In this document: one piece after another, positions 5,595-27,900 of the stretch | How positions within the stretch are numbered: the first letter of the stretch is position 1 | How the letters are laid out: every line of letters starts with the position of its first letter | Assembly (NCBI GenBank): GCA_905182305.1 | Contig: CAJJBB010000003.1 | Span: forward strand, 248,001-312,000 | Direction: 5' to 3' | Length of the DNA: 64,000 nt | DNA from: Flavobacteria bacterium MS024-2A | GTDB taxonomy: Bacteria > Bacteroidota > Bacteroidia > Flavobacteriales > Flavobacteriaceae | The notes under the pieces: generated by a model | The model's database searches: none | Told to the model about the DNA's origin: nothing | The model's input: only the letters and a program-made list of their open reading frames with translations | Made by a program: the position numbers and the translations under genes

Positions 5595-6524
5595 ATGCTT
5601 GATAAAAAAAGCCACTATTCAGAAAGTATTAAAAGTAAAGCTAAAGCCTTAGGCTTTTTATCTTGTGGTATTTCAAAAGCAGATTTTCTAGAAGAAGAAG
5701 CCCCTCGTTTAGAACAGTGGCTCAATCAAAATCATCATGGAGAAATGGCCTACATGGCAAATCATTTTGATAAACGACTAGATCCAAGAGTTTTAGTGCC
5801 AGGTGCAAAAAGCGTGGTGTCCTTATTGCTTAATTATCACACTGAAGAAAAACAAACCGATGTTGAGGCGCCAAAAATAGCTTCCTATGCTTTTGGTGAC
5901 GATTATCACAAAGTTATAAAGGATAAATTAAAGGAATTGATGAGTTTTATTCATCAAGAAATAGGGGAGGTACAAGGACGGGTTTTTGTGGACTCTGCTC
6001 CGGTGATGGATAAGGCGTGGGCCGCTAAAAGCGGATTGGGCTGGATAGGAAAAAATACTAATTTAATTTCAAAAAAAGTAGGTTCTTTTTTCTTTATTGC
6101 AGAATTGATTCTTGATCTAGAATTAGAACACGATCTTCCAGCCACTGATCATTGCGGAAGTTGTACCGCCTGTATAGATGCTTGTCCAACAGATGCTTTA
6201 CTTGCGCCCTATCAAATTGATGGAAGTAAGTGTATTTCATATGTCACCATTGAGTTAAAAAATGAAATTCCAACTGATTTTCAAGGAAAAATGGATAATT
6301 GGGCTTTTGGCTGTGATGTTTGCCAAACCGTTTGTCCCTGGAATCGTTTTGCTACCCCTCATAGTGAGCCGGCATTTAATCCTCCAGATGAATTGCTATC
6401 TCTTTCTAAAAACGAGTGGGAGGAAATGACTCAAGAAGTTTTTTCTGTAATTTTTAAGAATAGCGCAATTAAACGTACAAAATATGAAGGTTTAAAGCGT
6501 AATATTAAGTTTTTATCTACCTAA
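5595..6524 (+). CDS. queG: Epoxyqueuosine reductase QueG
   Basis: Two 4Fe-4S motifs [15 protein letters not shown] and [33 protein letters not shown]. Confidence 0.95.
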
Positions 6525-6532
6525 AAGTTCTA

Positions 6533-7549
6533 TCATATTGAAGATGCTCGTTCTATCAATTCAGCTTTAATTTCTTCTCTTTTAATAGGGCTTATCTTTT
6601 TTTGTTTCAATTCAGCTTGTTCTTCTAAGAATAAGCGCATTATTTTTTCAGCCATTAAAGAAAGGTTTTGTTTTATTGAGCTTAGTTCTGGTGTAAAAAA
6701 GGTTCCAATTTCTGAATTTTCTTGTCCAATAAAACGAATGTCGTTGGGTATAGTAGACCCATTTTCTTTGTAAAACGTCATTGCACCAATGGCCAGAGGA
6801 TCATTGTAAGAAATAAAACCATCTATTTGAATGCCGCTATTAAATAATTCTTTGGCAATACGATACCCTTCAGATAAAGTACCCTGCTTAGATACTACAA
6901 TTCTTTGATTATCAATCGATATTTTATTTACTTCATGGGCTTCTCTAAAGCCAATAAATTGATTAATTGAATTTTGTGAAATCAAACTTTTTCTAATAAA
7001 AGCAATTTTGCTATTCCCCTTATTGATCAAATATTCGGTTACTCGCTTGATTATTGCTTTGTCATTGAACACTACTTTATTACAGGTAATTACTTTGGAG
7101 GTATTACTAAATGTAATTAAAGAGCTACTACTAGACATGACTTTTGTTAAATAAACGGTGCTGGTCGTTTCTTTAGTTAAGGAAATAAAAATCCCGTCGA
7201 CTTTTTGGCGCATGAGTCTTTCTAAATTCTCACTCTCTACTTGTTCTGATTCTGCGGAATTTAACACGATGGGCAAGTATCCATTTTTAGTTATTCTAAC
7301 AATTAGAGATGCCACAAGTTCGCTATAGAAATTTGTATTTAAATTAGGAACAACGATTCCAATGAGTTTTGTTTTTTTAGTTCTTAAAAAAGAGGCGTGA
7401 ATATTTGGTTCATAGCCAATTTTTTCAGCATACTCTTTCACTTTTTTTTTAGTTTCACTACCAATATCAGAATAGTCATTCATTGCCTTAGACACAGTAG
7501 TAGTCGAAATTTCTAATGCTTTAGCAATATCTTTAATGGTGATTTTCAT
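6533..7549 (-). CDS. LacI-family transcriptional regulator
   Basis: N-terminal HTH ITIKDIAKALEISTTTVSKAMNDYSDI plus periplasmic-binding-like domain; divergent from susC. Confidence 0.93.
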   Translation of the reverse strand: MKITIKDIAKALEISTTTVSKAMNDYSDIGSETKKKVKEYAEKIGYEPNIHASFLRTKKTKLIGIVVPNLNTNFYSELVASLIVRITKNGYLPIVLNSAESEQVESENLERLMRQKVDGIFISLTKETTSTVYLTKVMSSSSSLITFSNTSKVITCNKVVFNDKAIIKRVTEYLINKGNSKIAFIRKSLISQNSINQFIGFREAHEVNKISIDNQRIVVSKQGTLSEGYRIAKELFNSGIQIDGFISYNDPLAIGAMTFYKENGSTIPNDIRFIGQENSEIGTFFTPELSSIKQNLSLMAEKIMRLFLEEQAELKQKKISPIKREEIKAELIERASSI

Positions 7550-7613
7550 AATTATTTTATTTTAACTTTTATCCATTTTATTTTTCAGTCATTATCAATG
7601 TTTTTCACATTTC

Positions 7614-7661
7614 TTTAGTTTGAGTTAATGATATTAGAATATCATTAAACTAAATCGATTT
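7614..7661. promoter_or_regulatory. Candidate operator region for the divergent LacI regulator / susC
   Basis: Perfect 10-bp inverted repeat TAATGATATT-AG-AATATCATTA (7626-7647), outer arms TTTAGTTT (7614-7621) / AAACTAAA (7647-7654), and CpG-centred palindrome AAATCGATTT (7652-7661). Confidence 0.5.
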
Positions 7662-7764
7662 CGTATACAATATTAAGCATTTTTAACAAATCGTTAAGAT
7701 TTATTAGAAAACAATGATTAAAATTGCTAACTGAATAATTAACTAATAACTTAAACTAACTTAA

Positions 7765-10700
7765 ATGAAAAAAGAGTTCTTAAAAAAATTCCTGTACATG
7801 TTTGCATTTTTGCTTTCAGCTGGAATTTATGCACAAAACGTTACCGGTGTGGTAACTAGTGACGACGGCCCATTACCGGGAGCTACTATTCTGGTAAAAG
7901 GGACAAATAATTTTGCCACAACAGATTTTGATGGTAATTTCTCAGTAGAAGCAGCTCAAGGCGATATGCTTGTTGTTTCTTTCGTGGGATATACTACTCA
8001 AGAAGTTGCTGTAGACGGTGATCAAATCACTATAACTCTTGCTCTTGGTAATCTTTTAGAAGAAGTTATTGTAACTACTGGTTACGGTACACAGTCTAAA
8101 AGAGAGATTACAGGTGCTGTAACAACTGTCGATGCGGATGAGCTTCTTGCTGTTCCAGCAACTACTTTTGCTCAACAGCTTCAAGGTCGTGCAGCAGGTG
8201 TTACTATTATTAATGATGCAACACCAGGTGGAGAATCTACTGTTCGTATTCGTGGATTTGCTACCGTTGGTAATAACAATCCATTATATGTAATTGATGG
8301 AGTTCCTACACAGTCTCAAGGAAATTTAAATCCTAACGATATCGAAACACTACAAATATTGAAAGATGCTTCTGCATCTTCTATATATGGTGCTCGTGCA
8401 TCAAACGGTGTAGTTATTATTACAACTAAAAAAGGTAAGGTAGGAAGTGGAAATATCACATACAGCACTTACTACGGAACACAAAATACTGGACAAGATG
8501 TTGATGCAATGAATGCAGCAGATCTTGGAGAGTATCTTTACCTTGCAGATTATTATGCTGGTAAAACACCATCTCACGGTCAGTATGGTTTTTCAGGAAC
8601 TCCTGAAAACCCTGGAGTTAGTATTCCTAAATATGTTTTCCCTAGTGGAGCAAATTCAGTGGATGAGAATTTATACTCATTAACTCCTGCAAACATATAT
8701 GCGATTACTAGATCTGCCGACACTAACTGGTGGAATGAGGTAACACAATCGAATGCTCCTATTTTGAATCACCAGATTCAAGCTAGTGGTGCGAATGAAA
8801 CTTCTCAGTATGCATTTACTGCAAGTTATTTTTCTCAAGATTCTCCAGTAAGATTTGTAGGTTATGAAAGAGCTTCTATTCGTTTGAACTCTTCAACTAA
8901 AACTTTAGGCGGTCGTTTAAAGGTTGGTGAAAACTTCACTCTTTCTTTAGATAATCGTAAAGGTGGTTATAACAATAATGGAGAGCAAAATGCGGTTTCT
9001 GTGTCTTATAAGCACCACCCGTTACTTCCTATATATGATATTTCAGGACCTGAAGGAAATCAATATGGTGGTTTTGCTGGATCTCGTGGTTTAAACTTAG
9101 GTAACAACTACAATCCATACGCTACCCTATCCAGAAATCAAGATGACAGAAGCAAACGTTTTAGAGCGTTTGGTAATGTTTATGCTGAAGTAAAAATTCT
9201 AGATAAAGTTTCTGCTAAATCAAGTTTTGGTTTTGATGTAGTTGGTAGAAGAGGTATGTATATTGGACGACCTCAACCAGAATATGTAGAAGGAAACTTC
9301 GTGAATAGTTCATCTGCTGTATTCCAGCAGTCATATCAGTGGACGTTCACTAATACTGTAGCCTATAAAGAAACATTTAATGACATTCACAAAGTTGAAG
9401 CTTTAGTAGGTGTTGAAGCACTTGAATCTTTTGGTGAAATATTTGGAGCTGGAAGACAACGTTTTCCTTTTCAAACAACAGAAATTATTAGTTATTTAAA
9501 TGCTGGTAATCAAGGAACTTCTAGTAACTACGGTAATTCTCAAATTGATTATGCTTTATGGTCTCAGTTTGCAAAGTTAAACTACGGTTATGGAGATAAG
9601 TATTTAGCTCAGTTAGTAGTTCGTAATGATGCTTCCTCTCGATTTAAAGCGGCTACTTCTAGTGCAGTTTTCCCTTCTTTTAGTTTAGGTTGGAGGATTT
9701 CTGAAGAAGACTTCTTTAGTGGACTTACATTTATTGATGACCTTAAATTCAGATATGGATGGGGTAGAACAGGTAACCAAGAAATTGGAGATTACAATGC
9801 TTATACAGCTTTTCAATCTACTTCGTTTAACTCTTCTTATCCAATTGATGGTAGTGATGGTGCTGCAACTGCAGGATTTAACGCATCTCAATATGGTAAC
9901 CCTAATGCAAAATGGGAGACAACAACCTCTAATAACTTTGGGATAGATGCTCTTATGTTAGATCGTAAATTAAGCGTTGAGTTTGATTTATGGAATAGAA
10001 GCACAACAGACCTTTTATTAAACGTTCCAATTGCATACTCAGCTGGTGACGGTGGAGCTCCTGCACTTAACGTTGGTGAGATGTTAAATAGTGGTTTTGA
10101 TTTAGGATTAAGCTACAGTGACCAAAAAGGTGACTTCGGTTATTCTATTGGAGCTAATATTTCTCAATACAAAAATGAGATCATTCAGTTAGATGAGTTT
10201 GACACTCCTATTTTTGGATATAACTCTCGTGTACCTGCAATGACTATTACTCAAGTAGGTCAACCAATCTCTATGTTCTACGGATTTGAAACACAAGGTA
10301 TTTTTCAATCGGATGCTGAAGCAGCTGCATGGCCTACATATGGAGCTTACAACGCCGCTGGTAAATTCAAAATTACAGATGTTAATGGTGATGGTCAAAT
10401 CACAGATGATGACCGTACTATAATTGGTAACCCTCACCCAGACTTCGTATATGGTATTAATTTAAACTTGTCATACAAGAACTTAAACTTAAACCTATTC
10501 GGAAATGGATCACAAGGAAACGATATATATAACTATGTGCGTTATTTTGCTGACTTTAACACCTTCCAAGGTAACCGCTCAAATAGAGCATTAAATGATG
10601 CATGGCAGCCTAGTAATCCATCAGCACCAAGAAGCTCGTGGATCGCAGCTAATCCAAATGCAACATCACCTATAATGGATGCAAATGACCAGGTAAGTAG

Positions 10701-10971
10701 TAGAACTTCTTCCTACTTAATTGAGGATGGTTCATACTTTAGATTGAAAAACATTCAATTAACCTACACATTTGGTGATTCAATCAATAATGTTTTAGGT
10801 ATTTCAGGAGGTAACATTTATCTTCAGGGACAAAACTTAGTGACTATAACTGACTATACAGGTTTAAATCCTGAGATCCAAACAGGAGCAGATACAACAT
10901 TAGGTTTTGATGGAGGTTACATGCCAGTATCAAAAACTATAATTGTAGGATTAAACCTTAATTTATTTTAA
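7765..10971 (+). CDS. SusC/RagA-family TonB-dependent outer-membrane transporter
   Basis: Signal peptide, carboxypeptidase-regulatory-like domain (GVVTSDDGPLPGATILVKGTNNFATTDFDGNFSV), plug with RIRGFATVGNNNPLYVIDGVP, SIYGARASNGVVIITTKKGK. Confidence 0.97.
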   Translation: MKKEFLKKFLYMFAFLLSAGIYAQNVTGVVTSDDGPLPGATILVKGTNNFATTDFDGNFSVEAAQGDMLVVSFVGYTTQEVAVDGDQITITLALGNLLEEVIVTTGYGTQSKREITGAVTTVDADELLAVPATTFAQQLQGRAAGVTIINDATPGGESTVRIRGFATVGNNNPLYVIDGVPTQSQGNLNPNDIETLQILKDASASSIYGARASNGVVIITTKKGKVGSGNITYSTYYGTQNTGQDVDAMNAADLGEYLYLADYYAGKTPSHGQYGFSGTPENPGVSIPKYVFPSGANSVDENLYSLTPANIYAITRSADTNWWNEVTQSNAPILNHQIQASGANETSQYAFTASYFSQDSPVRFVGYERASIRLNSSTKTLGGRLKVGENFTLSLDNRKGGYNNNGEQNAVSVSYKHHPLLPIYDISGPEGNQYGGFAGSRGLNLGNNYNPYATLSRNQDDRSKRFRAFGNVYAEVKILDKVSAKSSFGFDVVGRRGMYIGRPQPEYVEGNFVNSSSAVFQQSYQWTFTNTVAYKETFNDIHKVEALVGVEALESFGEIFGAGRQRFPFQTTEIISYLNAGNQGTSSNYGNSQIDYALWSQFAKLNYGYGDKYLAQLVVRNDASSRFKAATSSAVFPSFSLGWRISEEDFFSGLTFIDDLKFRYGWGRTGNQEIGDYNAYTAFQSTSFNSSYPIDGSDGAATAGFNASQYGNPNAKWETTTSNNFGIDALMLDRKLSVEFDLWNRSTTDLLLNVPIAYSAGDGGAPALNVGEMLNSGFDLGLSYSDQKGDFGYSIGANISQYKNEIIQLDEFDTPIFGYNSRVPAMTITQVGQPISMFYGFETQGIFQSDAEAAAWPTYGAYNAAGKFKITDVNGDGQITDDDRTIIGNPHPDFVYGINLNLSYKNLNLNLFGNGSQGNDIYNYVRYFADFNTFQGNRSNRALNDAWQPSNPSAPRSSWIAANPNATSPIMDANDQVSSRTSSYLIEDGSYFRLKNIQLTYTFGDSINNVLGISGGNIYLQGQNLVTITDYTGLNPEIQTGADTTLGFDGGYMPVSKTIIVGLNLNLF

Positions 10972-10989
10972 TATTAATAACTCAAAAAA

Positions 10990-12768
10990 ATGAAAAAACT
11001 CAAATATTTATTAATCGCAACAATTGGAATCTTTGCCATTACAGTTAGCTGTAGTGATGAGTTCCTTTTGAAAGAGCCTCAAGGTTCTATTGCAGGACCT
11101 TCACTAGCTAACGCATCTGGTGTTGAAGGTAAATTAATCGCTGCATACCGTACCCTTTCAGGTCAAGGTATGAACGGTGGAGGAACATGGTACTACGATA
11201 TCCACGGATGGATATTTGGAGGAATTGCTTCTGACAACGCACTTAAAGGAACTGATGCAGGTGACCAGCCTGAGCATTCTTTTATCGAACAGTATGACTT
11301 TACAAATTTTAATGACCACATTAAAGACAAGTGGAGATCAGTTTATTGGGGAATGTCAAGAGCAAATGATGTAATTGATAGCGCAAATGATGAAAGAGTT
11401 ACTGATTTAAGTGCTACTAGAAAAGCTCAAATCATTGCTGAAGCACAGTTTTTAAGAGGTTTTCACGCTTTAGAAGCGCAAAAACACTTCCGTAATCCTG
11501 CCTATGTAGATGATGCTGCATACGACTTAAATGACGTTGAAAGTTCTAAAGTTCCTAACTCTGGACCAATTTGGGATCAGATTAGAGCTGACTTTACTGC
11601 TGCAGCTGCGGGTCTTCCTGCAGTTCAAGCTGAAGTTGGTAGAGCTACAAGCTGGGCAGCTAAAGCATTTTTAGCTAAAACGCACATGTATTCTGGAAGT
11701 GCGCAACTTATTTCAGCTGCTATCCCAGTAATGGAGGATATCGTAAATAATGGGCCATTTGATTTAGCTCCTGCTTTTGCTGAAAATCACCTAGTTGCTA
11801 CGAATAACAACTCAGAGTCTATCTTTGAAATTCAGTATGCAGTTTCTAGTGGTGATGATCAAAATGGTAATAAAGGAGTTGGTCTTGCACATCCATATAT
11901 TTCTCCTTGGGGATGTTGTGGATTCTATCAAGCGCCTCAGGATTTAATTAATTTCTTCCAGACTGATGCTGACGGATTACCTTTATTAGGTGGTGAGTGG
12001 CAGTCACAGAATATCACTAATCCAACAGGACCTATTTCAACATGGGATAATGTAGATCCAAATGGTATTGGTATGCCTATTGGAGATCCTCAAGTAGATC
12101 CTCGTTTAGACCATACTGTTGGACGTCCAAATGTTTTATACAAAGATTTCCACATCATGCAAGTAGATTACGTTCGTGATATTACTTATGCAGGCCCTTA
12201 TTGGTCTAAAAAGCATGTTGCTGAAAAAGCTGGCTTTGGAGTTGGTGGCTGGGGTAATATCTCTGCAAACAACTACCGTATCATGCGTCTTGGATTCATT
12301 AAACTATGGTTAGCAGAAGCTTATGTTGCTGAGGGTAGAATTGCTGATGCAATGAAGCAAATAAATGATATTCGTGAGCGTGCAGGTAGAGCTGGTACTT
12401 TTGTAACAGGAGCTACTCAAGGTGCTACTCGTGGAGACTATACTGCGACTACTGATGATGCGGCTAACTATAAAGTTGGTCTTTATACAGCAGCAACTTT
12501 TACTTCTGCGAATGCTCAAACAGCAGTACGTTATGAGTCTCGTTTAGAAACTGCAATGGAAGGACACCGTTTCTTTGATCTTCAAAGATGGGGAGTTATG
12601 AACACGGTACTTAATGATTATCTTAAATCAGAAGGTAGATATAGAATTTACCTAGCTGGGAAGTCATTTACTTCTCCTAAGAACGAGTACTACCCAATTC
12701 CTCAACAGGCAATTGATCGTTCTTATAAAGAAGGTGAACCAACTTTAACACAAGATCCTAACTACTAG
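10990..12768 (+). CDS. SusD/RagB-family nutrient-binding outer-membrane lipoprotein
   Basis: Lipobox VSC; AEAQFLRGFHALEAQKHF, RLGFIKLWLAEAYVAEG, ETAMEGHRFFDLQRWG; directly follows susC. Confidence 0.96.
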   Translation: MKKLKYLLIATIGIFAITVSCSDEFLLKEPQGSIAGPSLANASGVEGKLIAAYRTLSGQGMNGGGTWYYDIHGWIFGGIASDNALKGTDAGDQPEHSFIEQYDFTNFNDHIKDKWRSVYWGMSRANDVIDSANDERVTDLSATRKAQIIAEAQFLRGFHALEAQKHFRNPAYVDDAAYDLNDVESSKVPNSGPIWDQIRADFTAAAAGLPAVQAEVGRATSWAAKAFLAKTHMYSGSAQLISAAIPVMEDIVNNGPFDLAPAFAENHLVATNNNSESIFEIQYAVSSGDDQNGNKGVGLAHPYISPWGCCGFYQAPQDLINFFQTDADGLPLLGGEWQSQNITNPTGPISTWDNVDPNGIGMPIGDPQVDPRLDHTVGRPNVLYKDFHIMQVDYVRDITYAGPYWSKKHVAEKAGFGVGGWGNISANNYRIMRLGFIKLWLAEAYVAEGRIADAMKQINDIRERAGRAGTFVTGATQGATRGDYTATTDDAANYKVGLYTAATFTSANAQTAVRYESRLETAMEGHRFFDLQRWGVMNTVLNDYLKSEGRYRIYLAGKSFTSPKNEYYPIPQQAIDRSYKEGEPTLTQDPNY

Positions 12769-12789
12769 TAGTTTTTAACTTGTACATTT

Positions 12790-12830
12790 TAAAACCATGG
12801 GGTATATTTACTCCATGGTTTTTTTTATTA
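12790..12830 (+). terminator. Rho-independent terminator after susD
   Basis: AAAACCATGG-GGTATATTTACT-CCATGGTTTTTTTT hairpin and T tract. Confidence 0.8.
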
Positions 12831-12844
12831 TATATACTTAAGTT

Positions 12845-15800
12845 ATGCCAATAAAAACATCTCTTTTCACCCTTTTTATTTTGGCTTTATCAGTCTCCTG
12901 TAATTCTTCTACAGAGACTTTATTTAAAAAATTATCTGAAGAACACACCCAAATTTCTTTTCAAAATACTATTACAGAAACGGATTCATTTAATATTCTT
13001 ACCAACGAATATATTTTCAATGGTGGCGGTGTTGCTGTTTCAGATTTTAATAATGACGGACTCCCTGATTTATTTTTTACGGGCAATATGGTTTCAAACC
13101 AATTATACCTCAATCAAGGAAATTTAAAATTCAAAGAACATACCCAACAAGCGAATCTTGATACTAAAGGTTTATGGTCTACAGGAGTAGCAGTGGCAGA
13201 TGTAAATGCAGATGGTTGGATGGACTTGTATATCTGTGCCGCAATGCATGAAAATAATCGTGTCAACAAGCTCTATATTAACCAAGGTTTAGATACTAGC
13301 GGCAACCTATCTTTTAAAGAACAGGCAGAAGCCTATGGTATTAATGATTCCGGCAATAGCATGGCTGCTAGTTTTATAGATTATGACAAGGATGGAGATC
13401 TTGATCTTTATGTAGTTAATAATGAACAGAACCAAAGTATTCCTATTATTTATCGAAAAAAAGTAATGGATGGCTCAGCCCCAAGTAATGATAGATTATT
13501 CAGAAATAATGGTGATAATACGTTTTCAGATATAACCATAGCTGCTGGAATTACGATTGAAGGTTATGGATTGAGTGTTACGCCACTAGATGCTAATAAT
13601 GATCAGTGGGTAGATCTTTTTGTGACCAATGACTATATAGCAAATGATTTATTATACATAAATCAAAAAGATGGAACTTTTAAAAATGAAATAGAAAATA
13701 TTTTATTACACCAAAGTAAATTCTCAATGGGTTCTGACGCTGCAGACTTTAATAATGATGGATATTCAGATATTATCTCAATTGATATGCTTGGTGAAAC
13801 TCACCAAAGACAGAAGACAACCATCGCAAAAAGTTTGTTTTTTCAAAATGAAATGAATACAAAATATGGGTATCAAGATCAGCACATGCGAAATATGTTA
13901 TTTAAAAATAACGGGAATGATCTGCCTTTTAATGAAATAGGACAATATGCAGGGATCTATCAAACAGACTGGAGTTGGTCTCCCTTATTTGTAGATGTAG
14001 ATTATGATGGTAATAAGGATCTACTAATTACCAATGGTTTTCCAAGAGATATTACGGATATGGATTTTTCAAATTACAGATTTAATGATGGCCCATACAC
14101 TAGTGTTTCCACGCTTTTAGATTCAGTCCCAATCATTAAAATACCTAATTATGCTTACAGAAATAAAGGAAATTTAACCTTTGAAAATATGGAGGATAAA
14201 TGGGGTCTAAGCATTCCTTCTTTTTCAAATGGTGCGGTTTTTAGTGATCTTGATTTAGATGGTGATTTAGACTACGTGGTCAACAATATTAATGATCCTG
14301 CTTTTATTTTTGAAAATAAATTAACAGAGCAATCCCCAGAGATTAAATACCTTCAATGTAGTCTTGAGGGTACAAAAGAGAATCCGGATGCACTAGGAGC
14401 GCAAGTAGTGCTTCGTTTTTCTGATGGAACGTTTCAGTATCATCAACAGCAGCTATCTAGAGGATATATGTCTTCAGTAGATCCCACTGTCTATTTTGGT
14501 ATCCCAAAGAGTAAAAGCATTAGTACCCTTGAAGTTTTATGGCCTAATGGTACTTTTTCTTCTCTTGAAAACCCTTCACCCAACCAGCGTTATACTTTTT
14601 CTCAACAAAACAGTACACTAAAAAGTGAGCTGAGCTTTCCGTTTAAGGAAAAAGAGAAAGAGTATCTTTTTAGTGAAGTTTCATCGAGCTATGGAATTGA
14701 CTACGTTCATGAAGAAAAAAATGTTCAGGATTTTTTTAATCAGCGTTTACTCCCCCATAAACTATCTCAAAATGGACCTTGTTTAGCAGTAGGTGATATT
14801 GATGGAGATGGAAATGAAGATTTTATAGTAGGGGGCTCCTCAGGGTTTTCTCCCGTAATATTTTTTCAAAATCAATCTACAAAATTTACTAAGAAACCAC
14901 TTTTTAATAAAAAAGAATCGATGCGTTATGAAGTTGAAAGCATGACCCTTTTTGACGTTGATAATGATGGTGACTTAGATTTATATTTAGTCTCTGGAGG
15001 AAATCAATTTGATTTAAACTCAGAGTTTTATCAGGATAGATTACTCTTAAATAATGGAAAAGGCTCCTTCACATTAGATAAAACAAAACTTCCTGCTCTT
15101 ACCTCTAATGGATGTGTGGTTCGTCCCATGGATTTTGATAATGATGGTTATACGGATCTGTTTATAGGAGGCCATAATAAGCCTAAGTCCTACCCATTAG
15201 GAGATGCGAGTTTTTTATTAAAAAACAACCAAGGCTCTTTTGAGGATGTAACAAAAGCTTCTTTTGCGGCCTTATCTGAATTCGGCATTGTAACCGATGC
15301 GCAGTGGACCGATATGGATAATGATGGTTTTCAAGATATAATCGTAGTGGGGGAATACAGTCCGATTGCTATTTTTTTAAATAAAGAGGGAAAATTTATA
15401 CCTGCACCTAGTTCAGTTTTAGATGAAGCTTTTGGGCTATGGAAAGCTATAGAGCCTATTGATTATGATCAGGATGGAGATATGGATTTGCTTGTGGGGA
15501 ATCTTGGAGAAAATAACATGTATAATATTAGTCTAGATACTCCGATGATCATATCTACAAGAGATGTAGATTCAAATGGAAGCGTAGACCCACTAATTTT
15601 CACTTCTCAAAAAAACAGCGACGGTACTTGGGACATGTATCCTACTCAATTTTGGGACAATCTTAATCAGCAAAGTCCATATTTTAGGCAAGAATTTAAC
15701 TCATATAAAGCCTTTTCCAATGCCAATCTAAACTATTACCGAGAAAAAGGATTACTGAAAGACGACCAAACGTATAAGGCTAATTATGACGCCTCTCAAT

Positions 15801-16147
15801 GGGTAGAAAATCTTGGAAATGGATCCTATAAAATGAATTCACTTCCACCTGCTCTCCAACTGGGACCGATAAATGACTTTTTAACAATAGGGGAGGCTGA
15901 CAGTAAGAATGTTCTTGTTATAGGGAATGATTTTGGGGGACCACCATTTGAAGGTAATTTTGATGCATTTCAAGGAACCACCCTACAATGGAAAGAAAAT
16001 AAATGGGAGACTACGAGCGCTCAAAATTCAGGATTCCATGTATTTAAAGATGCCAAAGAGTTTGGGTTAGTTCATTTAAAAGATGGAAAGCAATTGATTT
16101 TAGTGTCCCAGAATCAAGATCGTTTATTGGTTTTTATCAAAAAATAA
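12845..16147 (+). CDS. FG-GAP/VCBS-repeat lipoprotein with ASPIC/UnbV-like domain (CRTAC1-like)
   Basis: Lipobox VSC; many DxNxDGxxDL repeats (VSDFNNDGLPDLFFTGN, VADVNADGWMDLYI); ASPIC-like SRGYMSSVDPTVYFGIPKSKSISTLEVLWPNG. Confidence 0.92.
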   Translation: MPIKTSLFTLFILALSVSCNSSTETLFKKLSEEHTQISFQNTITETDSFNILTNEYIFNGGGVAVSDFNNDGLPDLFFTGNMVSNQLYLNQGNLKFKEHTQQANLDTKGLWSTGVAVADVNADGWMDLYICAAMHENNRVNKLYINQGLDTSGNLSFKEQAEAYGINDSGNSMAASFIDYDKDGDLDLYVVNNEQNQSIPIIYRKKVMDGSAPSNDRLFRNNGDNTFSDITIAAGITIEGYGLSVTPLDANNDQWVDLFVTNDYIANDLLYINQKDGTFKNEIENILLHQSKFSMGSDAADFNNDGYSDIISIDMLGETHQRQKTTIAKSLFFQNEMNTKYGYQDQHMRNMLFKNNGNDLPFNEIGQYAGIYQTDWSWSPLFVDVDYDGNKDLLITNGFPRDITDMDFSNYRFNDGPYTSVSTLLDSVPIIKIPNYAYRNKGNLTFENMEDKWGLSIPSFSNGAVFSDLDLDGDLDYVVNNINDPAFIFENKLTEQSPEIKYLQCSLEGTKENPDALGAQVVLRFSDGTFQYHQQQLSRGYMSSVDPTVYFGIPKSKSISTLEVLWPNGTFSSLENPSPNQRYTFSQQNSTLKSELSFPFKEKEKEYLFSEVSSSYGIDYVHEEKNVQDFFNQRLLPHKLSQNGPCLAVGDIDGDGNEDFIVGGSSGFSPVIFFQNQSTKFTKKPLFNKKESMRYEVESMTLFDVDNDGDLDLYLVSGGNQFDLNSEFYQDRLLLNNGKGSFTLDKTKLPALTSNGCVVRPMDFDNDGYTDLFIGGHNKPKSYPLGDASFLLKNNQGSFEDVTKASFAALSEFGIVTDAQWTDMDNDGFQDIIVVGEYSPIAIFLNKEGKFIPAPSSVLDEAFGLWKAIEPIDYDQDGDMDLLVGNLGENNMYNISLDTPMIISTRDVDSNGSVDPLIFTSQKNSDGTWDMYPTQFWDNLNQQSPYFRQEFNSYKAFSNANLNYYREKGLLKDDQTYKANYDASQWVENLGNGSYKMNSLPPALQLGPINDFLTIGEADSKNVLVIGNDFGGPPFEGNFDAFQGTTLQWKENKWETTSAQNSGFHVFKDAKEFGLVHLKDGKQLILVSQNQDRLLVFIKK

Positions 16148-16318
16148 CCTTTGTAAAATCCAGCTTTTAAATCACCTTACCACTAGAATATCCCCATTTT
16201 AATTCCACGAAAAATAGTACTTTAGCTCTTGTAGTTTATGACAAACAATGGATTAAGGTTTGTAAAAACACCTTTATGAGTTTTTTTGAAAGTATATTAA
16301 TTCCCAATAATTAAAATA

Positions 16319-17684
16319 ATGTATTTAAAAAGATTTTTATTTATAACACTTTCTATCCTACTAGTTAGTTGTAATGACGGGGTTGAAGATACAGCTTACT
16401 TGCAAAGACTTGAAGATCCAGAACTTTTTCAAGCCTCTATTCAAAACTTAACAGATATAGTCGTTTATGATATATTCTCTCCCCCGGTTGCCTCTAGAGT
16501 TTATTTATATCCTACCATTGCTGCTTATGAGGTAGCCAGGAAAGCCGCTCCATTAAACTATAATTCATTAGTAGGTCAAGTAAAGGGCTTATCCCCATTA
16601 CCGAAGGCAAAAACTGAGGAAGTTAACTATCTTTTAGCTTCAATTTATGCTTTTAATCATGTGGGTAAGGCACTTATTTTTTCCCAAAAGAAAATGGAAG
16701 TATTCCAAGCAGATTTTGCTGCTAAAATCAAAGAAATAAAAGTTCCTCCTAGCATAGATAAAGCCTCAAAAGCTTATGGAATCATTGCTGCCAATTCAAT
16801 TTTAGAGTGGGCCTCAAAAGACCTTTATAGTCAAACCAGGACCTATCCTAAATACTTTATGAAACAAGAGGATCGTTTTTGGAAGCCTACACCTCCAGAT
16901 TACATGGATGGAATTGAGCCCCATTGGGAAAAAATCAGAACAATGGTATTAGATTCCTCAAATCAATTTCAACCTAAAGCACCTTTAAAGTTCGATTTAA
17001 CAAAGGGAAGTCCATTTCAAAAACAACTTTGGGACGTTTATCAGGTAATTAATAATCTAGACGAAGAACAAATAGAAGTGGCTAAGTTTTGGGATTGTAA
17101 TCCATATGTTTCAAACCATAAGGGACATGCAATGTTTGCAATAAAAAAAATAACTCCAGGAGGTCACTGGATTGGAATTACGGCAGTAGCAACACGTCAA
17201 GCCAAGAAGTTCCTTTATGGAAACAATAAATGCTTATACTAATGTATCGATTGCTTTATTTGATAGTTTTATTAGCTGTTGGGATGAAAAATGGGACACG
17301 TTAATTGTTAGGCCAGAAACCTTGATCAATCAATATTATGATGAACAGTGGTTGCCCTTATTACAAACACCTCCCTTTCCAGAATATACCAGTGGTCATT
17401 CTGTAATCTCTCGAGCAGCAGCCGTCACGCTTACTGATTTATTTGGTGATAATTTCAGCTTTACCGATACTTCAGAAGTAGCTTATGGTTTGGGCCAAAG
17501 AAAATATAATTCCTTTATTCACGCTTCAGAAGAAGCCGCAATTTCTAGATTTTACGGGGGCATCCATTATATGATGGCTATTGATGAGGGGGTTACGCAA
17601 GGACAAGCAGTAGGGGACTATGTTGTTCAAAAAATTCAAACTAAAGTAAGAAGTTCTATATCCGATAACTTTAATAAAGAGTAA
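16319..17684 (+). CDS. Vanadium-dependent haloperoxidase / PAP2-superfamily lipoprotein, interrupted by one +1 frameshift near 17210
   Basis: Lipobox VSC in ORF 16319-17242; ORF 17217-17684 carries KWDTLIVRP, YTSGH, SRFYGGIHYMMAID (PAP2/VHPO signature). Continuous protein if one T near 17210 is removed: TRQAKK-SFMETINAYTNVSIALFDSF. Confidence 0.85.
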
Positions 17685-19049
17685 TGGAAAAAAAGAGGCT
17701 TAATTTTTGGCAAATTTTGACCATGAATTTTGGATTCTTTGGGGTGCAGTTTAGCTTTGGACTTCAGCAAAGTAACATGAGTGCTATATATAAATACTTG
17801 GGCGCAGAAGAAGCAGAATTACCTCTGCTTTGGCTTGCAGGACCCGTGACAGGATTAGTTGTTCAGCCTATTATCGGAGCCATAAGTGACGGTACATGGT
17901 CTCCAAAATTTGGGCGACGTAAACCCTTTTTTCTTATGGGGGCTGTTATTGCCAGTTTAGCTTTAATTGCCATGCCCTATTCAAGCTCAATTTGGATGGC
18001 TGCAGGTTTATTGTGGATACTAGATGCGGCAAATAATATTGCTTTAGAACCTTACCGTGCTTTTATTTCTGATAAGCTTCCAAAAAAGCAATACTCTATT
18101 GGGTTTTTAGTTCAAAGCTTTTTTACGGGTTTAGGAACGACCCTAGCAAACTTTCACTCCTGCAATTTTAGTCTCTTTTGGAATCCTTGCCATGTCAGAT
18201 AAAATGGATAATGGAATTCCTGTAGCTACCTACTGGGCATTCGGAATTGGTGCAGCAGCATCGATCGTTACGATTCTAATTTCTGTATTAACCACTTCTG
18301 AGTATCCGCCTACTGCTGAAGAGCTTAAAATAATTGAAGCCTCAAAAAAAGAAGGAAATATAGTACTTAGAACATTTAAAGATATTTGGCTTGCCCTAAA
18401 AGATATGCCCTTGTCAATGAGGCAACTCATTCCAGTGATGTTTTTCCCTTGGTATGCCATGTTTTGTTACTGGCAATATCTCACCTCTGCTCTTTCTCTT
18501 TCACTTTATGGAACACTAGACCAAACGACAACTTTTTTTAATCAAGCACAGTTACTTACAGGAAATTTAAACGGAACCTATAATATTATTTGTTTTTCAA
18601 TTGCTTTTGCCTTAATACCTATAGCAAGAAAATTTGGTGCAAAACACCTCCACTTTGTTAGTTTAACTATTGGTGGAGTCTCATTATTATGCATGCCTTT
18701 TCTTAACGATACTGATTTAATATTTACACTTCCTTTGGGAAATGGAATTCCTGTTTCTGAGATTTATTTATTTTCCTTTGGACTTGGGATAACCTGGGCC
18801 TCAATGATGGCTATGCCATATGAGATGTTAGCGGCCTCTATTCCTCAAGGGAAAACAGGAATTTATATGGGTATTTTCAATATGTTTATTGTGATTCCTA
18901 TGATTATACAAATTTTTTCAGTTCAATATTTTGTATATGATTTGTTAGGTCAAAACCCAATAAATATTATTAGACTAGCGGGAGTTTTCTTAATAATTGG
19001 CGGGATTTTCTCTATGTTTGTTAGTCAGCCTAAAACAATTGAGAGCTAA
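17684..19049 (+). CDS. SLC45/sucrose-type MFS sugar transporter, interrupted by one +1 frameshift at about 18155
   Basis: ORFs 17684-18202 and 18192-19049; GPVTGLVVQPIIGAISDGTWSPKFGRRKPF MFS signature; removal of C at 18155 restores GLGTTLANFTPAILVSFGILAMSDKMDNGIPVATYWAF. Confidence 0.85.
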
Positions 19050-19099
19050 TTATTTAAATTAAAAAGAGCGTTACGACTCTTGCTACTAAAGAAATTAAT

Positions 19100-21370
19100 A
19101 TGCAGAACGAACAACAGCGCAGAGCGGCACTTGTGTATCACGCTAAACCAAGACCAGGAAAAACGGAGGTTATCCCTACAAAAAGTTATGATACGCAACG
19201 GGACTTAGCCTTGGCATATTCTCCAGGTGTAGCAATTCCTTGTCTAGAGATAGAGAAAAACAAAGAGGATGTATATAAATATACCAACAAAGGCAATTTA
19301 GTGGCAGTAATTTCAAATGGGACTGCTGTTTTAGGGCTTGGTGATATTGGACCAGAAGCTTCCAAACCAGTCATGGAAGGTAAAGGGCTACTTTTTAAAA
19401 TCTTTGCTGATATTGATGTTTTTGATATCGAAATTGACGCCAAAGATCCAGATAAATTTATTGAAGCAGTCAAAGCAATTGCCCCAACTTTTGGGGGAAT
19501 TAATCTTGAGGATATTAAGTCTCCTGAAGCCTTTGAGATTGAACGAAGATTAAAAGAGGAATTGGATATTCCGGTAATGCACGATGATCAGCATGGAACC
19601 GCCATAATCTCTGCCGCTGCACTTTTGAATGCCTTGGAGCTTTCAGAAAAAAAGATAGAAGAAGTCACTATTGTGGTTTCTGGAGCAGGTGCTGCTGCAA
19701 TTTCTTGCACAAAACTTTATAAAGCTTTTGGCGCTAAAGTTGATAATATTGTAATGTTGGATAGTAAAGGTGTTATTCGAAGAGATCGTGAAAATCTTAG
19801 TCCTGAAAAAGATGAATTTGCAACATCAAGAGATCTTAATACTCTAGATCAAGCGATGAAAGGGGCAGATGTATTCATAGGATTGTCTAAATCTGATATT
19901 GTTTCTCCCAAGATGCTTTTGACAATGGCTAAAAATCCAATTGTTTTTGCAATGGCTAATCCTGATCCTGAAATTGGATATGATATAGCTTGTAAAACAA
20001 GGGAGGATATTATTATGGCTACTGGGCGTTCTGATAATCCCAATCAGGTAAATAATGTTCTCGGATTTCCATTTATTTTTAGAGGCGCTTTAGACGTTAG
20101 AGCAACTACTATTAATGAGGCTATGAAAATGGCAGCCGTAAAAGCTCTAGCTGATCTAGCAAAAGAATCTGTCCCTGAGCAAGTAAATTTAGTATATGAT
20201 CAAACTCGACTGAGTTTTGGGAAAGAGTATATAATTCCAAAGCCATTTGATCCACGATTAATAACAACCGTTCCACCTGCAGTTGCTAAAGCAGCAATCG
20301 ATTCTGGTGTTGCTACAGCTCCAATAGAAGACTGGGACCGTTACAAGGAAACTTTAGAGGGTAGATTAGGGAATAGTCAGAAAATGGTACGTTTACTTCA
20401 TGATCGAGCAAAATCTGCTCCAAAACGTCTTGTTTTTGCTGAGGCCGATCAAATGGATGTTCTTAAAGCAGCTCAAATTGTGGAGGAAGAAGGTATTGCT
20501 CATCCTATTTTATTGGGAAACAAACAGGTCATCACAGATTTAAGAAAAGCGATTGATTTTACTGCTGATGTTGAAATTATTGACCCAAAAGATTACAGTC
20601 ACAATGCCCAAAAAAAAGAGTATGCTAAGTTATTTTGGAAAGAACAAAACCGAAAAGGATATACTCTATATGATGTTGAGCGTTTAATGGGTGAACGAAA
20701 CTATTTCGCATCCATGATGATAAAAAATGGAGATGCAGATGCTATGATTTCTGGATATTCCAGGAATTATCGTTCGGTAGTTAAACCTATTTTAGAAACG
20801 ATATCAAAGTCAAAAGGGGTAAATAAAGTTGCTGCTACTAACTTAATGTTGACAAAATCAGGACCTTTATTTTTATCTGATACCACAATGAATGTGGAGC
20901 CATCTGCTAAAGAACTTGCAAAAATTGCTCAAATGACAGCCAATACAGCTAGTTTGTTTGGTTTAGAGCCGATTATGGCGATGCTTTCTTTCTCAAATTT
21001 TGGTTCTTCACGTTACCCTCAAGCTAAAAAAGTTAGTGATGCGGTTTCCTTACTCCACAGAAGTAGTCCTGAATTAATTGTTGACGGACCTATTCAATCA
21101 GATTTTGCTCTGAATAAAGGTTTACTTCAAAATACATTTCCATTTTCTTCATTGAGTAATAAAAAAGTTAACGTATTAATTTTCCCAAATTTAGATTCGG
21201 CAAATATCACTTATAAATTAATGAAAGAGTTAAATGAAGCATTGTCTATTGGGCCGATATTAATGGGCCTTAGCGAACCTGCTCATGTTTTACAATTAGG
21301 AGCTTCAGTAGATGAAATCGTAAACATGTCGGCTGTTGCAGTTATTGACGCTCAATCAAAAAATAAATAA
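19100..21370 (+). CDS. maeB: NADP-dependent malic enzyme with C-terminal phosphotransacetylase-like domain
   Basis: 756 aa; DLALAYSPGVAIPCLEI, HDDQHGTAIISAAALLNALEL; PTA-like C-terminal half (VDGPIQSDFALN). Confidence 0.94.
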   Translation: MQNEQQRRAALVYHAKPRPGKTEVIPTKSYDTQRDLALAYSPGVAIPCLEIEKNKEDVYKYTNKGNLVAVISNGTAVLGLGDIGPEASKPVMEGKGLLFKIFADIDVFDIEIDAKDPDKFIEAVKAIAPTFGGINLEDIKSPEAFEIERRLKEELDIPVMHDDQHGTAIISAAALLNALELSEKKIEEVTIVVSGAGAAAISCTKLYKAFGAKVDNIVMLDSKGVIRRDRENLSPEKDEFATSRDLNTLDQAMKGADVFIGLSKSDIVSPKMLLTMAKNPIVFAMANPDPEIGYDIACKTREDIIMATGRSDNPNQVNNVLGFPFIFRGALDVRATTINEAMKMAAVKALADLAKESVPEQVNLVYDQTRLSFGKEYIIPKPFDPRLITTVPPAVAKAAIDSGVATAPIEDWDRYKETLEGRLGNSQKMVRLLHDRAKSAPKRLVFAEADQMDVLKAAQIVEEEGIAHPILLGNKQVITDLRKAIDFTADVEIIDPKDYSHNAQKKEYAKLFWKEQNRKGYTLYDVERLMGERNYFASMMIKNGDADAMISGYSRNYRSVVKPILETISKSKGVNKVAATNLMLTKSGPLFLSDTTMNVEPSAKELAKIAQMTANTASLFGLEPIMAMLSFSNFGSSRYPQAKKVSDAVSLLHRSSPELIVDGPIQSDFALNKGLLQNTFPFSSLSNKKVNVLIFPNLDSANITYKLMKELNEALSIGPILMGLSEPAHVLQLGASVDEIVNMSAVAVIDAQSKNK

Positions 21371-21962: not shown

Positions 21963-24900
21963 TTGATTGAGACAGCTCGATATTTAATTTTTAAGGCACC
22001 CCATACTTCATTTGTTATCCTATTAGGGATATTTTTATCCTGTGGAGTTTTGTCTGCTCAACAAGGTGCTGTTTTAGGAAAGATCTCTCCTCCTAATTCA
22101 AGCAACATCTCTAGTCAGTATCGATATAATGCAGATACTGATCGATATATATTTACAGAAGAAATTGGCGGATATCCCATAAGTATTCCTTTGATGCTTT
22201 CTGTCAAAGAATATGAGGCTCTGGTGCTTAAAGAGCAAATGAAAACATACTTTCAGGATAAATTACAAGTACTTAGTGGAAGAGGTTCTAATCTAGAGGA
22301 GATTCAAAAAAACTTATTGCCCGAATTGTATGTAAATAATAAATTTTTTCAATCCATTTTTGGTAGTGATGCCATTAATATTTCTCCTCAAGGATCCATA
22401 GGAATAGATTTAGGGTATCGCTATCAAAAAAATGATAATCCAAATGCATCACCAGTAAATAGAAGAAATAATGGATTTGATTTCGACCAACGGATAAGTT
22501 TAAGCTTATTGGGAAAAATTGGAGAACGACTTCAAATTACTGCAAATTATGATACTGAATCTACCTTTGATTTTCAAAATTTAATTAAAATCCAATTCAA
22601 TAAGCCTCAACTTTCGGAGATTAAGAATTTGATTCCAGGAAAAGTGGGTTCAACATTGAGTGGACTTCAAGAAAAGGTTGAATCAGTCCAAAATAAAGTG
22701 TCCGATGTTAAACAAAAAATCAATGAAGCTAAAAGTACTTTAAATCAAGCACGCCAGAAAATTGATGATTTAAAAGAGAACCTTAACAAACTCCCAAACA
22801 GTTCTGAACAAGTCGGAAATAGAGTGGCAGACTATTTAAAAGGAAAGGTTACTGAAGATGCTATTCTTCAGAATATTGATATTGGTAATATTAGTATGCC
22901 CTTAAACAGCAACTTAATACAAGGGGCACAAAGTCTTTTTGGTGTAAGAGCAGATTTGAAATTTGGTAATACTACAATTTCAGGAATTTTTTCGGAGCAA
23001 CGTTCTCAGTCTCAAAATATTACTTCACAAGGAGGGGGAAAGCTTGAGGATTTCAGCCTTTTTGCGTTAGATTACGAAGAAGATAGACATTACTTTATTA
23101 GTCATTATTTTAGAGATAATTACGATGCGTTTTTAGACACTTATCCTTACATAAATTCACCTATTCAAATAACTAGAATTGAGGTTTGGATTACTAATAG
23201 AGGCTATCAAACTCAAAATGTTAGAAATATTATTGCTCTTCAAGATTTAGGAGAGGCTAATCCTGAAAATACTCGATTGGATGATTCAGTTTCTTCTTTT
23301 TTTATTGAGGGAAATCCTTTATTCCCTCCAAGTAATAAAGTTAACAAACTAGACCCTGATGAGATTGGTTTTGGAGGAATTTTAACATCTAATATTCGTG
23401 ATATTGCGAAAGTAAAAAACGGATTTGGTGTAACTAAAGTTTCCGAAGGGAAGGATTATGCGGTTTTAGAAAGTGCAAGAAAACTAAATGCCCAAGAATA
23501 CACTTTTCATCCACAGTTAGGGTATATATCTTTAAATCAACGTCTCAGTAATGATGAAATTTTAGGAATCGCTTTTCAGTATACTTATTTAGGAAAAGTA
23601 TATCAAGTAGGAGAGTTTGCCAATGGCGACATACCTGGCACCTCTTTATTACAAAATGATGTTTCGCCACAACCCCAGCAGGCACCTATTATTCAAACAA
23701 ACAATCTGGTAGTTAAATTGCTTAAAAGTAGTTTGACCGATGTACGTCAACCTCTTGTGGGATTTGATGATGAAGAATATCTATAACACCGGTGCTTTTC
23801 AATTGTCTGAAGAAGATTTCAAACTCAGTATTTTATATACTGATCCTTCACCAATCAATTACATGACCCCTGTTGATGTTTCTATTTGGCCAAAATCTTT
23901 AGATCAAGAGGTTTTATTAAACACCATGGATTTAGACCGTTTAAATGCATATCAAGATCTAGTGGCTCGTGGCGATGGTTTTTTTGACTTATATACCTGG
24001 AATAACTATTGACCCTAGGTATGGCCGTATTATTTTTCCTAAAGCAGAACCTTTCGGAGAATTTCTTTTTAATTTATTAGACAATCCAGAATCTTCTAAA
24101 GAGGATTATGATATTGAAAGTAGTTTTAATAAGAATCAAAAGAAGTATGTATTCAATCAAATGTATTCTTCTACAAAAGCATCTGCATTAGAGTTTACGG
24201 AAAAAAACAAGTTTCAACTCAAAGGAAAGTACAAGTCTGAAGGAGGAGATGGTATTAATATCGGTGCATTTAATGTCCCTAGAGGTTCTGTTAAGGTAAC
24301 AGCAGGTGGAAGGGTACTTCAAGAGGGAATGGATTATACTGTTAATTACGAAATAGGAAGAGTGAAAATTCTAGATGAAGGGTTAAAAGCCTCTAATATT
24401 CCTATTGATATTTCGGTAGAGAATAATTCTTTTTTCAATCAACAAAACAAGCGTTTTTCCGGATTTAATATTAATCATCGTATTAGCGATAAAATTTTTG
24501 TAGGAGGAACCTTAATTAATTTAAGTGAAAATCCTTTAACTCAAAAAGCTAATTATGGAACAGAACCGGTTAATAATACCATGATGGGTTTCAACACTAA
24601 TTTTTCTACAGAAATCCCTTTTTTAACACGCTTAGTAAATAAATTGCCAACAGTTAAATCTACGATTCCTTCTCAAATTTCTTTTAGAGGAGAAGTTGCA
24701 AGTCTAGCGGCTAAAGATCCTAGAAATACCCAATTGAACGGTGAAACTAATGTGTATATTGATGATTTTGAGGGGGCTCAAACCAATATTGATGTAAAAG
24801 GTTTTAATGCTTGGAATCTTTCAAGTGTTCCTGTTAATGATGTTCCAGGAGCTGACTCTAGAGGGCTTGGCAAGTGGTTTTGCACGGTCTAAATTGGCTT

Positions 24901-27900
24901 GGTACTCTATAGATCAAGTATTCTATTTTAGGCCACCAGCAGGAATAAATAATGATGACATTTCATCTAACGAAACTCGGCGTATTTTTATCAACGAATT
25001 ATTCCCTGAACAGGATATAGTTCAAGGGACACCAAGTACTTTACCTACATTTGATTTAGCTTATTACCCTGAGGAAAAAGGTCCTTATAATAATGCTACT
25101 TCAGAGAAGTTTTCAATGGATCCCAAAAATAATTGGGGAGGTATTATGCGTTCTTTAAATGCTACTAACTTTGAGCAATCTAATGTTGAATTTATTGAGT
25201 TTTGGTTATTAGACACATTTTCTGAAAACACTTCACCTTCAGATGATCTGGGAGAGTTGGTTTTTCATTTAGGAAATATATCTGAAGATATTTTGCGCGA
25301 TGGAAGAAAACAATTTGAAAACGGACTCCCTTCCTCTACCGAAGCAACACCAACCTATCAAACGCCTTGGGGAAAAGTTCCAGCAAATCAATCCTTAGTT
25401 TATGCCTTTAATTCTGTCGCTGAAGACCGTTCTATTCAAGATGTGGGTCTTGATGGTTTAGCAGATTCACAAGAACAAACAATTTTCACCAATGGACCAA
25501 GTAATGACCCTGCAGGTGATAATTATCAATATTTTTTACAAGGGGAAGGAGGTATTTTAGATCGGTATAAAAACTATAATGGACTAGAAGGTAATACCCC
25601 AATAAACTTTAGTGATTCAGATAGAGGAAATACAACAGAACCTGATACAGAAGATATTAATCGTGATCAGAGTATGAATACGATTGATAGTTATTTTGAA
25701 TATCGTGTTCCTATTTCCAAAAACATGCAGGTAGGGAACCATCCTTTTATTACAGATGTTCGTGAAAATATTAATGTAAATACTCCTAATGGAGATCAGT
25801 TTTCGACACGTTGGATCCAATTTAAGATACCTATCCAGAAAGATTATTATGAAAACACTTCTTACAATAGATATTTTAAGGCAGTCAATGAAATTAACGA
25901 TTTGCGATCTATTCGTTTTATGCGAATGGTTTTAAATGGTTTTGAAAAAAAAGTGGTTTTTCGATTCGGAACCTTAGATCTTGTTCGTGGTGATTGGAGA
26001 AGGTATAATAAGCCTTTAAACGAAGAGATTTTAGTTAATCAAAATACCACGGTAGACATTAGTACCGTAAACATTCTTGAAAATGAAAATCGTATTCCTA
26101 TTAACTACGTATTGCCTCCAGAAATAAGAAGGGAGCAAATCAACAACAACAATACCATTATTCGTCAAAATGAACAATCTTTAGCTTTTAGAGTTTGTGA
26201 TCTACAACCTTCAGATTCTCGTGGAGTTTATAAAGGTTTGGATTTAGACATGAGACAATACAGTAAACTTCGTATGTTTTTACATGCAGAATCTCTTCCA
26301 GGAAATGAACCTTTGCCTGGAGAAGGTTCAGAAGAAGAATTTGACAAACGCTTGGTGGCTTTTATTAGATTAGGTTCAGATTACCAAGATAATTTTTATC
26401 AGATTGAAGTACCTTTAAAGCCTTCAGCTTATACTGATAATAATTCCAATAAACTTTCTGCAGAAGAGGTTTGGAATCCAGATTCTAATTCGCTGGAGGT
26501 TCCCATTGATATCCTTACGAAACTCAAAGCACTTGCTTTGCAACAGTTGGGACTTGGAAAAACTTTATATTTTGATGAAACATTAAATCCTATTAATGAA
26601 TTCACTCCCATTAGCAGCTTACCAGGAGACCACAAGTATAAGTTTGCTATTCGAGGAAATCCTTCTCTAGGAGCCATTAGAACACTTATGATTGGAGTTA
26701 AAAATCCATCTACTACCCTAGGGGAGTCCTTATGTGGAGAAGTTTGGTTTAATGAACTAAGAATTTCAGGTATAGATAGTCAAGGGGGGTGGGCAGCTAT
26801 TGGGGCCTTAGATGCTAATCTTGCTGATTTCGCATCTTTTTCTGCTACGGGGCGTTATTCTACAATTGGATTTGGCAGCATAGACCAAACTCCCAACCAA
26901 AGAACAAGAGAAGATTTATTACAATATGATATAGTTTCAAATATTAATTTAGGGCAATTAACACCTCAAAAGTGGGGTCTTCAAATTCCTTTAAGTTTTG
27001 CTAGTGGGGAAACCTTAATTACCCCAGAATATGATCCTTTTTATCAAGATATAAAATTGAGTGATCGTCTAGAAACGCTCAAAGAAAATCACAACGTGAT
27101 TCTATTAGAAATCAATCTATTGATTATACAAGACGTAAAAGTATTAGTTTAATTGGTGTCAGAAAGAACAGTAATAGCGATGGTCCTACGCGCTTTTATA
27201 GTCCCCAAAATTTTAATTTTAACTATGCATACAATGAGTTAGAGCATCATGATTATGAAATTGAAAACCATGAAGAAATAAACCTCCTTTTAGGAGCAAA
27301 TTATGGGCATTCTTTTTCTAGTAAACCTATAGAACCTTTTAAGAAGGTCACTTTTTTAAATCAAAAAAAATACTTGCAATGGCTACAGGAATTAAACTTC
27401 AATTTACTGCCTAATTCAATTGAGGGAGCTGCAAATATTAATCGTATTTTAAATAATCAAAAATTTAGACAAGTATACCTAGAGGGAGTAGATTCTCAAA
27501 TTCAACGCGATCTACCCAATTTGCAGCAACGCAACTTTTTGTTTGATTACAATTATGCCTTTACCCATAATTTAAGTCGTTCGCTACGCGTAAATTTCAA
27601 TGCAGCAACAAGTAGTATTATCAGAGAATTAGATCCTTTTGGAGGTAGCTTAGGTGCTCCTGTGTCTGAATCTGGTTCAAGAGCTTTATGGGAGGGAATT
27701 CTAAATCCAGGAGAACCAAATACTCACATACAATCCTTAGTTGTTAATTATAAACTACCCTTTCAATACATTCCATTACTTAGCTTTATAGATGCTACCT
27801 ATAATTATACAGGTAATTTTAATTGGATCAGGGGTTCAGAAGCACTCTCGCAAGTGGTAAGTGAAGATGGAATTCCTTTAGGTATTGTCAACACTATTCA

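Follow-up and report, generated by a model that had tools for sequence, protein, structure and literature searches.

A SusCD locus with a vanadium iodoperoxidase-family lipoprotein and no glycoside hydrolase: a possible oxidative uptake module in Flavobacteriaceae

What does a SusC/SusD (SusCD) uptake locus do with a vanadium enzyme in the place of the usual polysaccharide-degrading enzymes? The question is raised by a 64,000-nucleotide stretch of DNA from Flavobacteria bacterium MS024-2A (contig CAJJBB010000003.1, positions 248,001 to 312,000), hereafter the window. Between QueG (5595-6524) and MaeB (19100-21370) its forward strand encodes the TonB-linked outer-membrane transporter SusC (7765-10971), the lipoprotein SusD (10990-12768), a CRTAC1-like FG-GAP/UnbV_ASPIC lipoprotein of 1,100 residues (12845-16147; hereafter the ASPIC protein), a frameshifted lipoprotein gene of the vanadium iodoperoxidase (VIPO) family (16319-17684) and a frameshifted SLC45/sucrose-transporter-like permease gene of the major facilitator superfamily (MFS; 17684-19049). 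A divergent LacI-family regulator is encoded on the reverse strand (6533-7549), and no glycoside hydrolase (GH) gene was found among the genes between QueG and MaeB. The locus shares with a polysaccharide utilisation locus the tandem SusC/SusD, a regulator, an inner-membrane sugar-type permease and lipoproteins beside SusD, but it is without a carbohydrate-active enzyme (CAZyme), and an oxidative enzyme takes the place of the usual hydrolases and lyases. VIPO, SusCD and ASPIC proteins are each already known; the SusCD locus with an oxidative partner is the new part. We know of no settled role for the bacterial vanadium iodoperoxidases, although a crystal structure exists.

Identity of the vanadium enzyme

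The initial annotation described the enzyme as a PAP2/vanadium-haloperoxidase (VHPO)-like lipoprotein with intact motifs, which would act as a phosphatase or a haloperoxidase. The motifs are indeed exact (K 17289 to RP 17310, KWDTLIVRP; SGH 17391-17399; SRFYGGIH 17544-17567), but the gene is broken into two open reading frames (ORFs), 16319-17242 and 17217-17684, which do not share a frame. The motifs fall in the second, a separate ORF of 155 residues without the signal-peptide half. The full-length homology and fold tests were run on the intact orthologue of a genome from the same genus (G137, locus L040; 453 residues). A phmmer search of this orthologue against solved proteins matched exactly one, the VIPO of Zobellia galactanivorans (4CIT/4USZ; E 8e-147 over 408 residues), and gave no match to a phosphatase structure. 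The modeled structure of the orthologue (pLDDT 87) had the same protein as its best Foldseek match (E 3e-33, 50% identity), with the chloroperoxidases far behind (E ~1e-10), and the full-length identity to the Zobellia enzyme is ~50-53%. Residues K324, R331, S358, G359, H360, R410 and H416, which we take to be the vanadate ligands from established VHPO/PAP2 motif knowledge, are invariant across 39 homologues together with W321, and the ligands are present in the ORF 17217-17684. The lipobox cysteine is invariant among the VIPO homologues, and in the window lipobox signals are found on SusD, the ASPIC protein and VIPO.

Vanadium peroxidases and acid phosphatases share an active site and the window enzyme has a PAP2 superfamily match in Pfam, and one could argue that a PAP2-type acid phosphatase acts here on a phosphorylated substrate ahead of import. 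We consider this highly improbable: the acid phosphatases match only part of the fold (210-240 residues, half the chain) with E > 1e-3, against a full-length match to VIPO. The structural modeling placed VIPO well ahead of the phosphatases, and from the two-sided claim of the initial annotation the haloperoxidase is retained, as a member of the iodoperoxidase family, while the phosphatase is dropped. Judged by homology and fold, the window enzyme belongs to the vanadium iodoperoxidase family and is not an acid phosphatase, and its predicted activity is that of a peroxidase, the oxidation of iodide by H2O2. It has in common with the Zobellia enzyme the full-length homology, the best fold, the vanadate ligands with W321 and the lipoprotein family; it differs in that the window copy is frameshifted and its halide preference is a prediction from the family.

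A possible oxidative uptake module and its recurrence

The reading that we favor, with a probability of roughly 45%, is that of a CAZyme-free SusCD locus serving as a surface uptake module, where VIPO oxidises iodide by H2O2 beside the material captured by SusCD and the ASPIC protein, and the product is then imported. VIPO, on the cell surface, would oxidise iodide (possibly bromide) with H2O2 to hypohalous acid, which would halogenate, oxidise or loosen organic matter bound by the big beta-propeller ASPIC protein. The soluble, probably sugar-like product would be imported by SusCD, carried across the inner membrane by the SLC45-type permease in the window lineage and sensed by LacI. The surface location of VIPO, iodide as the halide, the action on captured material and the import of the product by SusCD are the parts of this scheme that we infer.

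The association of the partners was surveyed in 200 Flavobacteriaceae genomes from 199 genera, where VIPO is present in 89 and a close ASPIC relative in 126. Both occur together in 88 genomes, VIPO only in 1, ASPIC only in 38 and neither in 73 (Fisher p 8e-25), which means that ASPIC is found in 88 of the 89 VIPO-positive genomes against 38 of the 111 VIPO-negative ones. The canonical SusD of the module occurs in 23 genomes, all 23 of them VIPO-positive (p 1e-9); both p-values ignore shared ancestry, an effect that the sampling of about one genome per genus lessens but keeps. Since SusD and VIPO lie on separate contigs in genomes such as G184, G064 and G035, the signal is more than physical linkage. 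At the level of loci, ASPIC stands in 49 of 53 full-length Flavobacteriaceae VIPO loci, in 46 of them upstream of VIPO and in the same orientation. Of the 50 named loci that span 15 kb or more, with Cyclobacteriaceae, Saprospiraceae and Marinoscillum among their sources, 35 contain it. Genomes of further families were surveyed too, and 24 of the 40 have ASPIC near VIPO; the order SusC-SusD-ASPIC-VIPO recurs in several further Bacteroidota families. The protein of locus L092/L188 in genome G001 is 98.8% identical to the 4CIT sequence, so that by sequence the genome is that of Zobellia or of a very close relative. Its locus reads SusC-SusD, more genes and ASPIC-ASPIC-ASPIC-VIPO-GyrI-like, so that a GyrI-like protein follows VIPO in Zobellia where the window has the SLC45 permease. 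By these counts the VIPO-ASPIC-SusCD neighborhood is more than chance: the co-conservation of SusCD, ASPIC and PAP2/VHPO that the initial annotation proposed to look for is a real association, and the chance adjacency that it named as the refuting outcome was not found, the partners recurring across families and co-varying when unlinked.

As a separate observation, a protein of ~200 residues without a Pfam match (cluster c5; L107 2806-3408) is constant between the ASPIC genes of the canonical module, and its copy in L079 has a signal-peptide and lipobox-like N-terminus.

The site itself offers another explanation. We compared the slot between QueG and MaeB (6524-19100) with its relatives L040-L044, L049, L052, L100-L106, L112 and L114, and found VIPO alone (L052, L103, L112), VIPO-MFS (L101), SusC-SusD-ASPIC-VIPO with MFS present or not (L104, L105, L102, L114), or several ASPIC genes together with SusCD of a second type (L042, L044, L049, L106). 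Among these close relatives VIPO stays in the slot, and SusCD-ASPIC, LacI and MFS come and go. It could be that VIPO-MFS is the resident of the slot and that an unrelated SusCD-ASPIC cassette was inserted alongside, as the variable content with either of two SusCD-ASPIC types and the hairpin after SusD would fit. However, many families have the same partners together at other, unrelated places in the chromosome and their profiles co-vary unlinked, which makes such a site-driven assembly improbable.

It is a considerably more speculative step to extend the uptake reading to a Bacteroidota-wide type, in which a surface vanadium iodoperoxidase, not a glycosidase, chemically readies material held by SusCD and ASPIC. 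If true, halogen chemistry would be a part of nutrient import, which would explain the purpose of the bacterial iodoperoxidases. Their link to SusCD and FG-GAP/ASPIC proteins, together with the unlinked co-occurrence, gives these enzymes named partners and opens a concrete question, namely whether iodide is oxidised at the surface of marine Bacteroidota for nutrient uptake, for defence or for iodine accumulation. A bearing on the marine iodine cycle is possible, because the VIPO family is present in nearly half of the sampled Flavobacteriaceae. Full-text literature searches found no published linkage of VIPO to SusCD/ASPIC, which may stand in the original VIPO description, outside the search.

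Sugar context and competing purposes

The genes of LacI, SusC, SusD and the FG-GAP/ASPIC protein are intact ORFs of the expected families, as the initial annotation had them: LacI matches Pfam LacI (6e-11) and Peripla_BP_3, SusC matches TIGR04056 (790 bits), SusD PF07980 (1e-30) and the ASPIC protein PF13517 (7e-71) and PF07593 (3e-19). The top solved relatives are 5t3r_D for SusC (E 3e-148) and 5lx8/5t3r for SusD (E 4e-57), which the database labels only as "SusC/SusD homolog" and which, with 6z8i, we take to be the levan SusCD of Bacteroides thetaiotaomicron (BT1763/BT1762). This pair is the best solved relative of both window proteins, at ~33% identity. Of the seven residues that presumably contact the ligand in BT1762, the window SusD keeps the equivalents of N43, D67, C298 and R368; D41 and W85 are not kept and Y395 is uncertain. 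No GH32 was found in the window genome (86.5% complete). Levan or fructan as the SusCD ligand is thus left unproven, and with only four of seven contact residues kept and no GH32 in the genome, fructan remains a lead from sequence comparison and not a result.

The AlphaFold model of the ASPIC protein (pLDDT 88) has CRTAC1 (9etn) as its best fold (E 3e-26), the only solved close relative. FG-GAP repeats and the UnbV_ASPIC domain are common to both, but the bacterial one is a lipoprotein of roughly double the length, with extra FG-GAP repeats beyond the ASPIC domain. A full-length paralogue (37-39%) occurs in the same genome at L183 (G000:C5:62000-81900), a locus without VIPO where the neighbors are a pair resembling SusC/SusD and a GMC-type oxidoreductase whose gene is split. 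The SLC45/sucrose-type assignment of the permease holds by its relatives, as the intact L040 protein matches plant SUC1 (8bb6, E 2e-21) and SLC45A4 (E 9e-7), but the initial annotation had not reported that the window gene is split by a frameshift into two ORFs (17684-18202 and 18192-19049). The L040 permease scores 109.7 bits (1.6e-31) with TIGR01301 against a cut-off of 511, far under the threshold of this curated sucrose-symporter family.

A link to sugars, in favor of the uptake reading, is given by the SLC45/SUC1-like permease and by GH97, trehalase, GH100-like and XylA/XylB genes near VIPO in relatives. The genes found beside VIPO in other loci are those of GH97, a GH100-like protein, GH37 trehalase, GH127, a PRK-like kinase, XylA/XylB with a sodium symporter, or a set of glycerol genes. 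Across the compared loci ASPIC-VIPO stays the same, and it is the sugar genes that vary. We therefore do not retain the missing CAZymes as a defining trait: none is encoded between QueG and MaeB, so the statement of the initial annotation is correct for the locus itself but overstated as a trait, since relatives carry GH97, GH37, GH100-like, GH127 or xylose genes adjoining the module, and the absence is local. In some Cyclobacteriaceae (L149 12776-18647) VIPO-SLC45 is followed by a MIP channel, an FGGY kinase and a glycerol-phosphate oxidase-like protein, the last being a possible source of H2O2.

Several observations weigh against the uptake reading. The window has an intact reading frame neither for VIPO nor for the permease, and a terminator-like hairpin separates SusD from ASPIC, so that the locus may form more than one transcription unit, which the initial annotation had named as a refuting outcome. 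VIPO is kept without SusCD/ASPIC at the slot in L052, L100, L101, L103 and L112; ASPIC was found near VIPO in none of five genomes of family f5 and none of five of f22. Finally, the neighboring sugar genes differ by lineage and thus indicate no single substrate.

The persistence of VIPO without a local SusCD, and the variation of the sugar genes (xylose, alpha-glucoside, trehalose, glycerol) around a constant ASPIC-VIPO, would also suit a protective enzyme. During feeding on algal material, VIPO at the surface could remove H2O2 by means of iodide or bromide, or produce hypohalous acid that acts on competitors or signals, and the sugar-uptake genes would be co-located through induction in a shared habitat. 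In Zobellia, expression of vIPO3 is higher on the brown alga A. nodosum than on alginate or maltose (PMC9296495), which agrees with protection but fits feeding equally and covers one paralogue that is not established as the VIPO of the module. Protection also leaves the near-obligate co-occurrence with ASPIC and the unlinked co-occurrence with SusD unexplained, and we regard it as a possible but clearly less probable purpose than uptake.

Acquisition of iodine is a third purpose, in which VIPO would oxidise iodide and the cell would accumulate the product, either permeable or bound to organic matter, with SusCD/ASPIC as the receptor side. Arenibacter C-21, likewise a marine member of the Flavobacteriaceae, accumulates iodine with glucose or peroxide in an H2O2-dependent manner. 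For this strain a haloperoxidase at the surface has been proposed, and 4USZ has no fewer than five homologues in it (PMC5064120); the likeness to the window is one of physiology. On the other side, no iodine storage gene or requirement is known for the window organism, and LacI, SLC45 and the sugar-gene context point to carbohydrate. Thus we consider iodine acquisition unlikely.

Transcription signals and broken reading frames

The gap between LacI and SusC contains a 20-bp palindrome, AATGATATTAGAATATCATT (7627-7646), with nine of ten positions paired, which is a candidate LacI operator. LacI is absent from the same site in L104 and L105. The hairpin of the SusD-ASPIC gap (12791-12822, forward strand) resembles an intrinsic terminator with a 14-bp stem and a T tail. 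The stem also occurs in L104 and L105, where base changes on one side are matched on the other (CCATGG to CCGCGG), and the hairpin may attenuate transcription or stop it ahead of ASPIC. The scan of the intergenic gaps for Bacteroidetes-type promoters gave one weak match only, which overlaps the hairpin, and sigma-70-like sites were no commoner than in shuffles. The VIPO stop and the permease start share one base (17684) in the window and the two genes overlap in L104 too, which suggests their coupling.

The VIPO gene is read in one frame to ~17205 and in the next from ~17200. Compared to the intact L040 and L104, it carries an extra single base near 17194-17213, and the permease gene carries another near 18150, each producing a +1 frameshift. 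The SprA gene downstream (21963-29398), intact at ~2,300 residues in relatives, changes frame four times (~23755, ~23985, ~24870 and ~27060). The genes of SusC, SusD, ASPIC, MaeB, RuvA and QueG are all intact, the breaks being concentrated between 17 and 27 kb, with high identity on either side of them. We therefore favor indel errors of assembly rather than recent decay, because the breaks cluster with high identity on both flanks, the neighboring SprA is also broken, and L104 and L105 carry the same gene order with every gene intact. A protease-like ORF at 61078-61902 ends abruptly as well, probably by one more frameshift.

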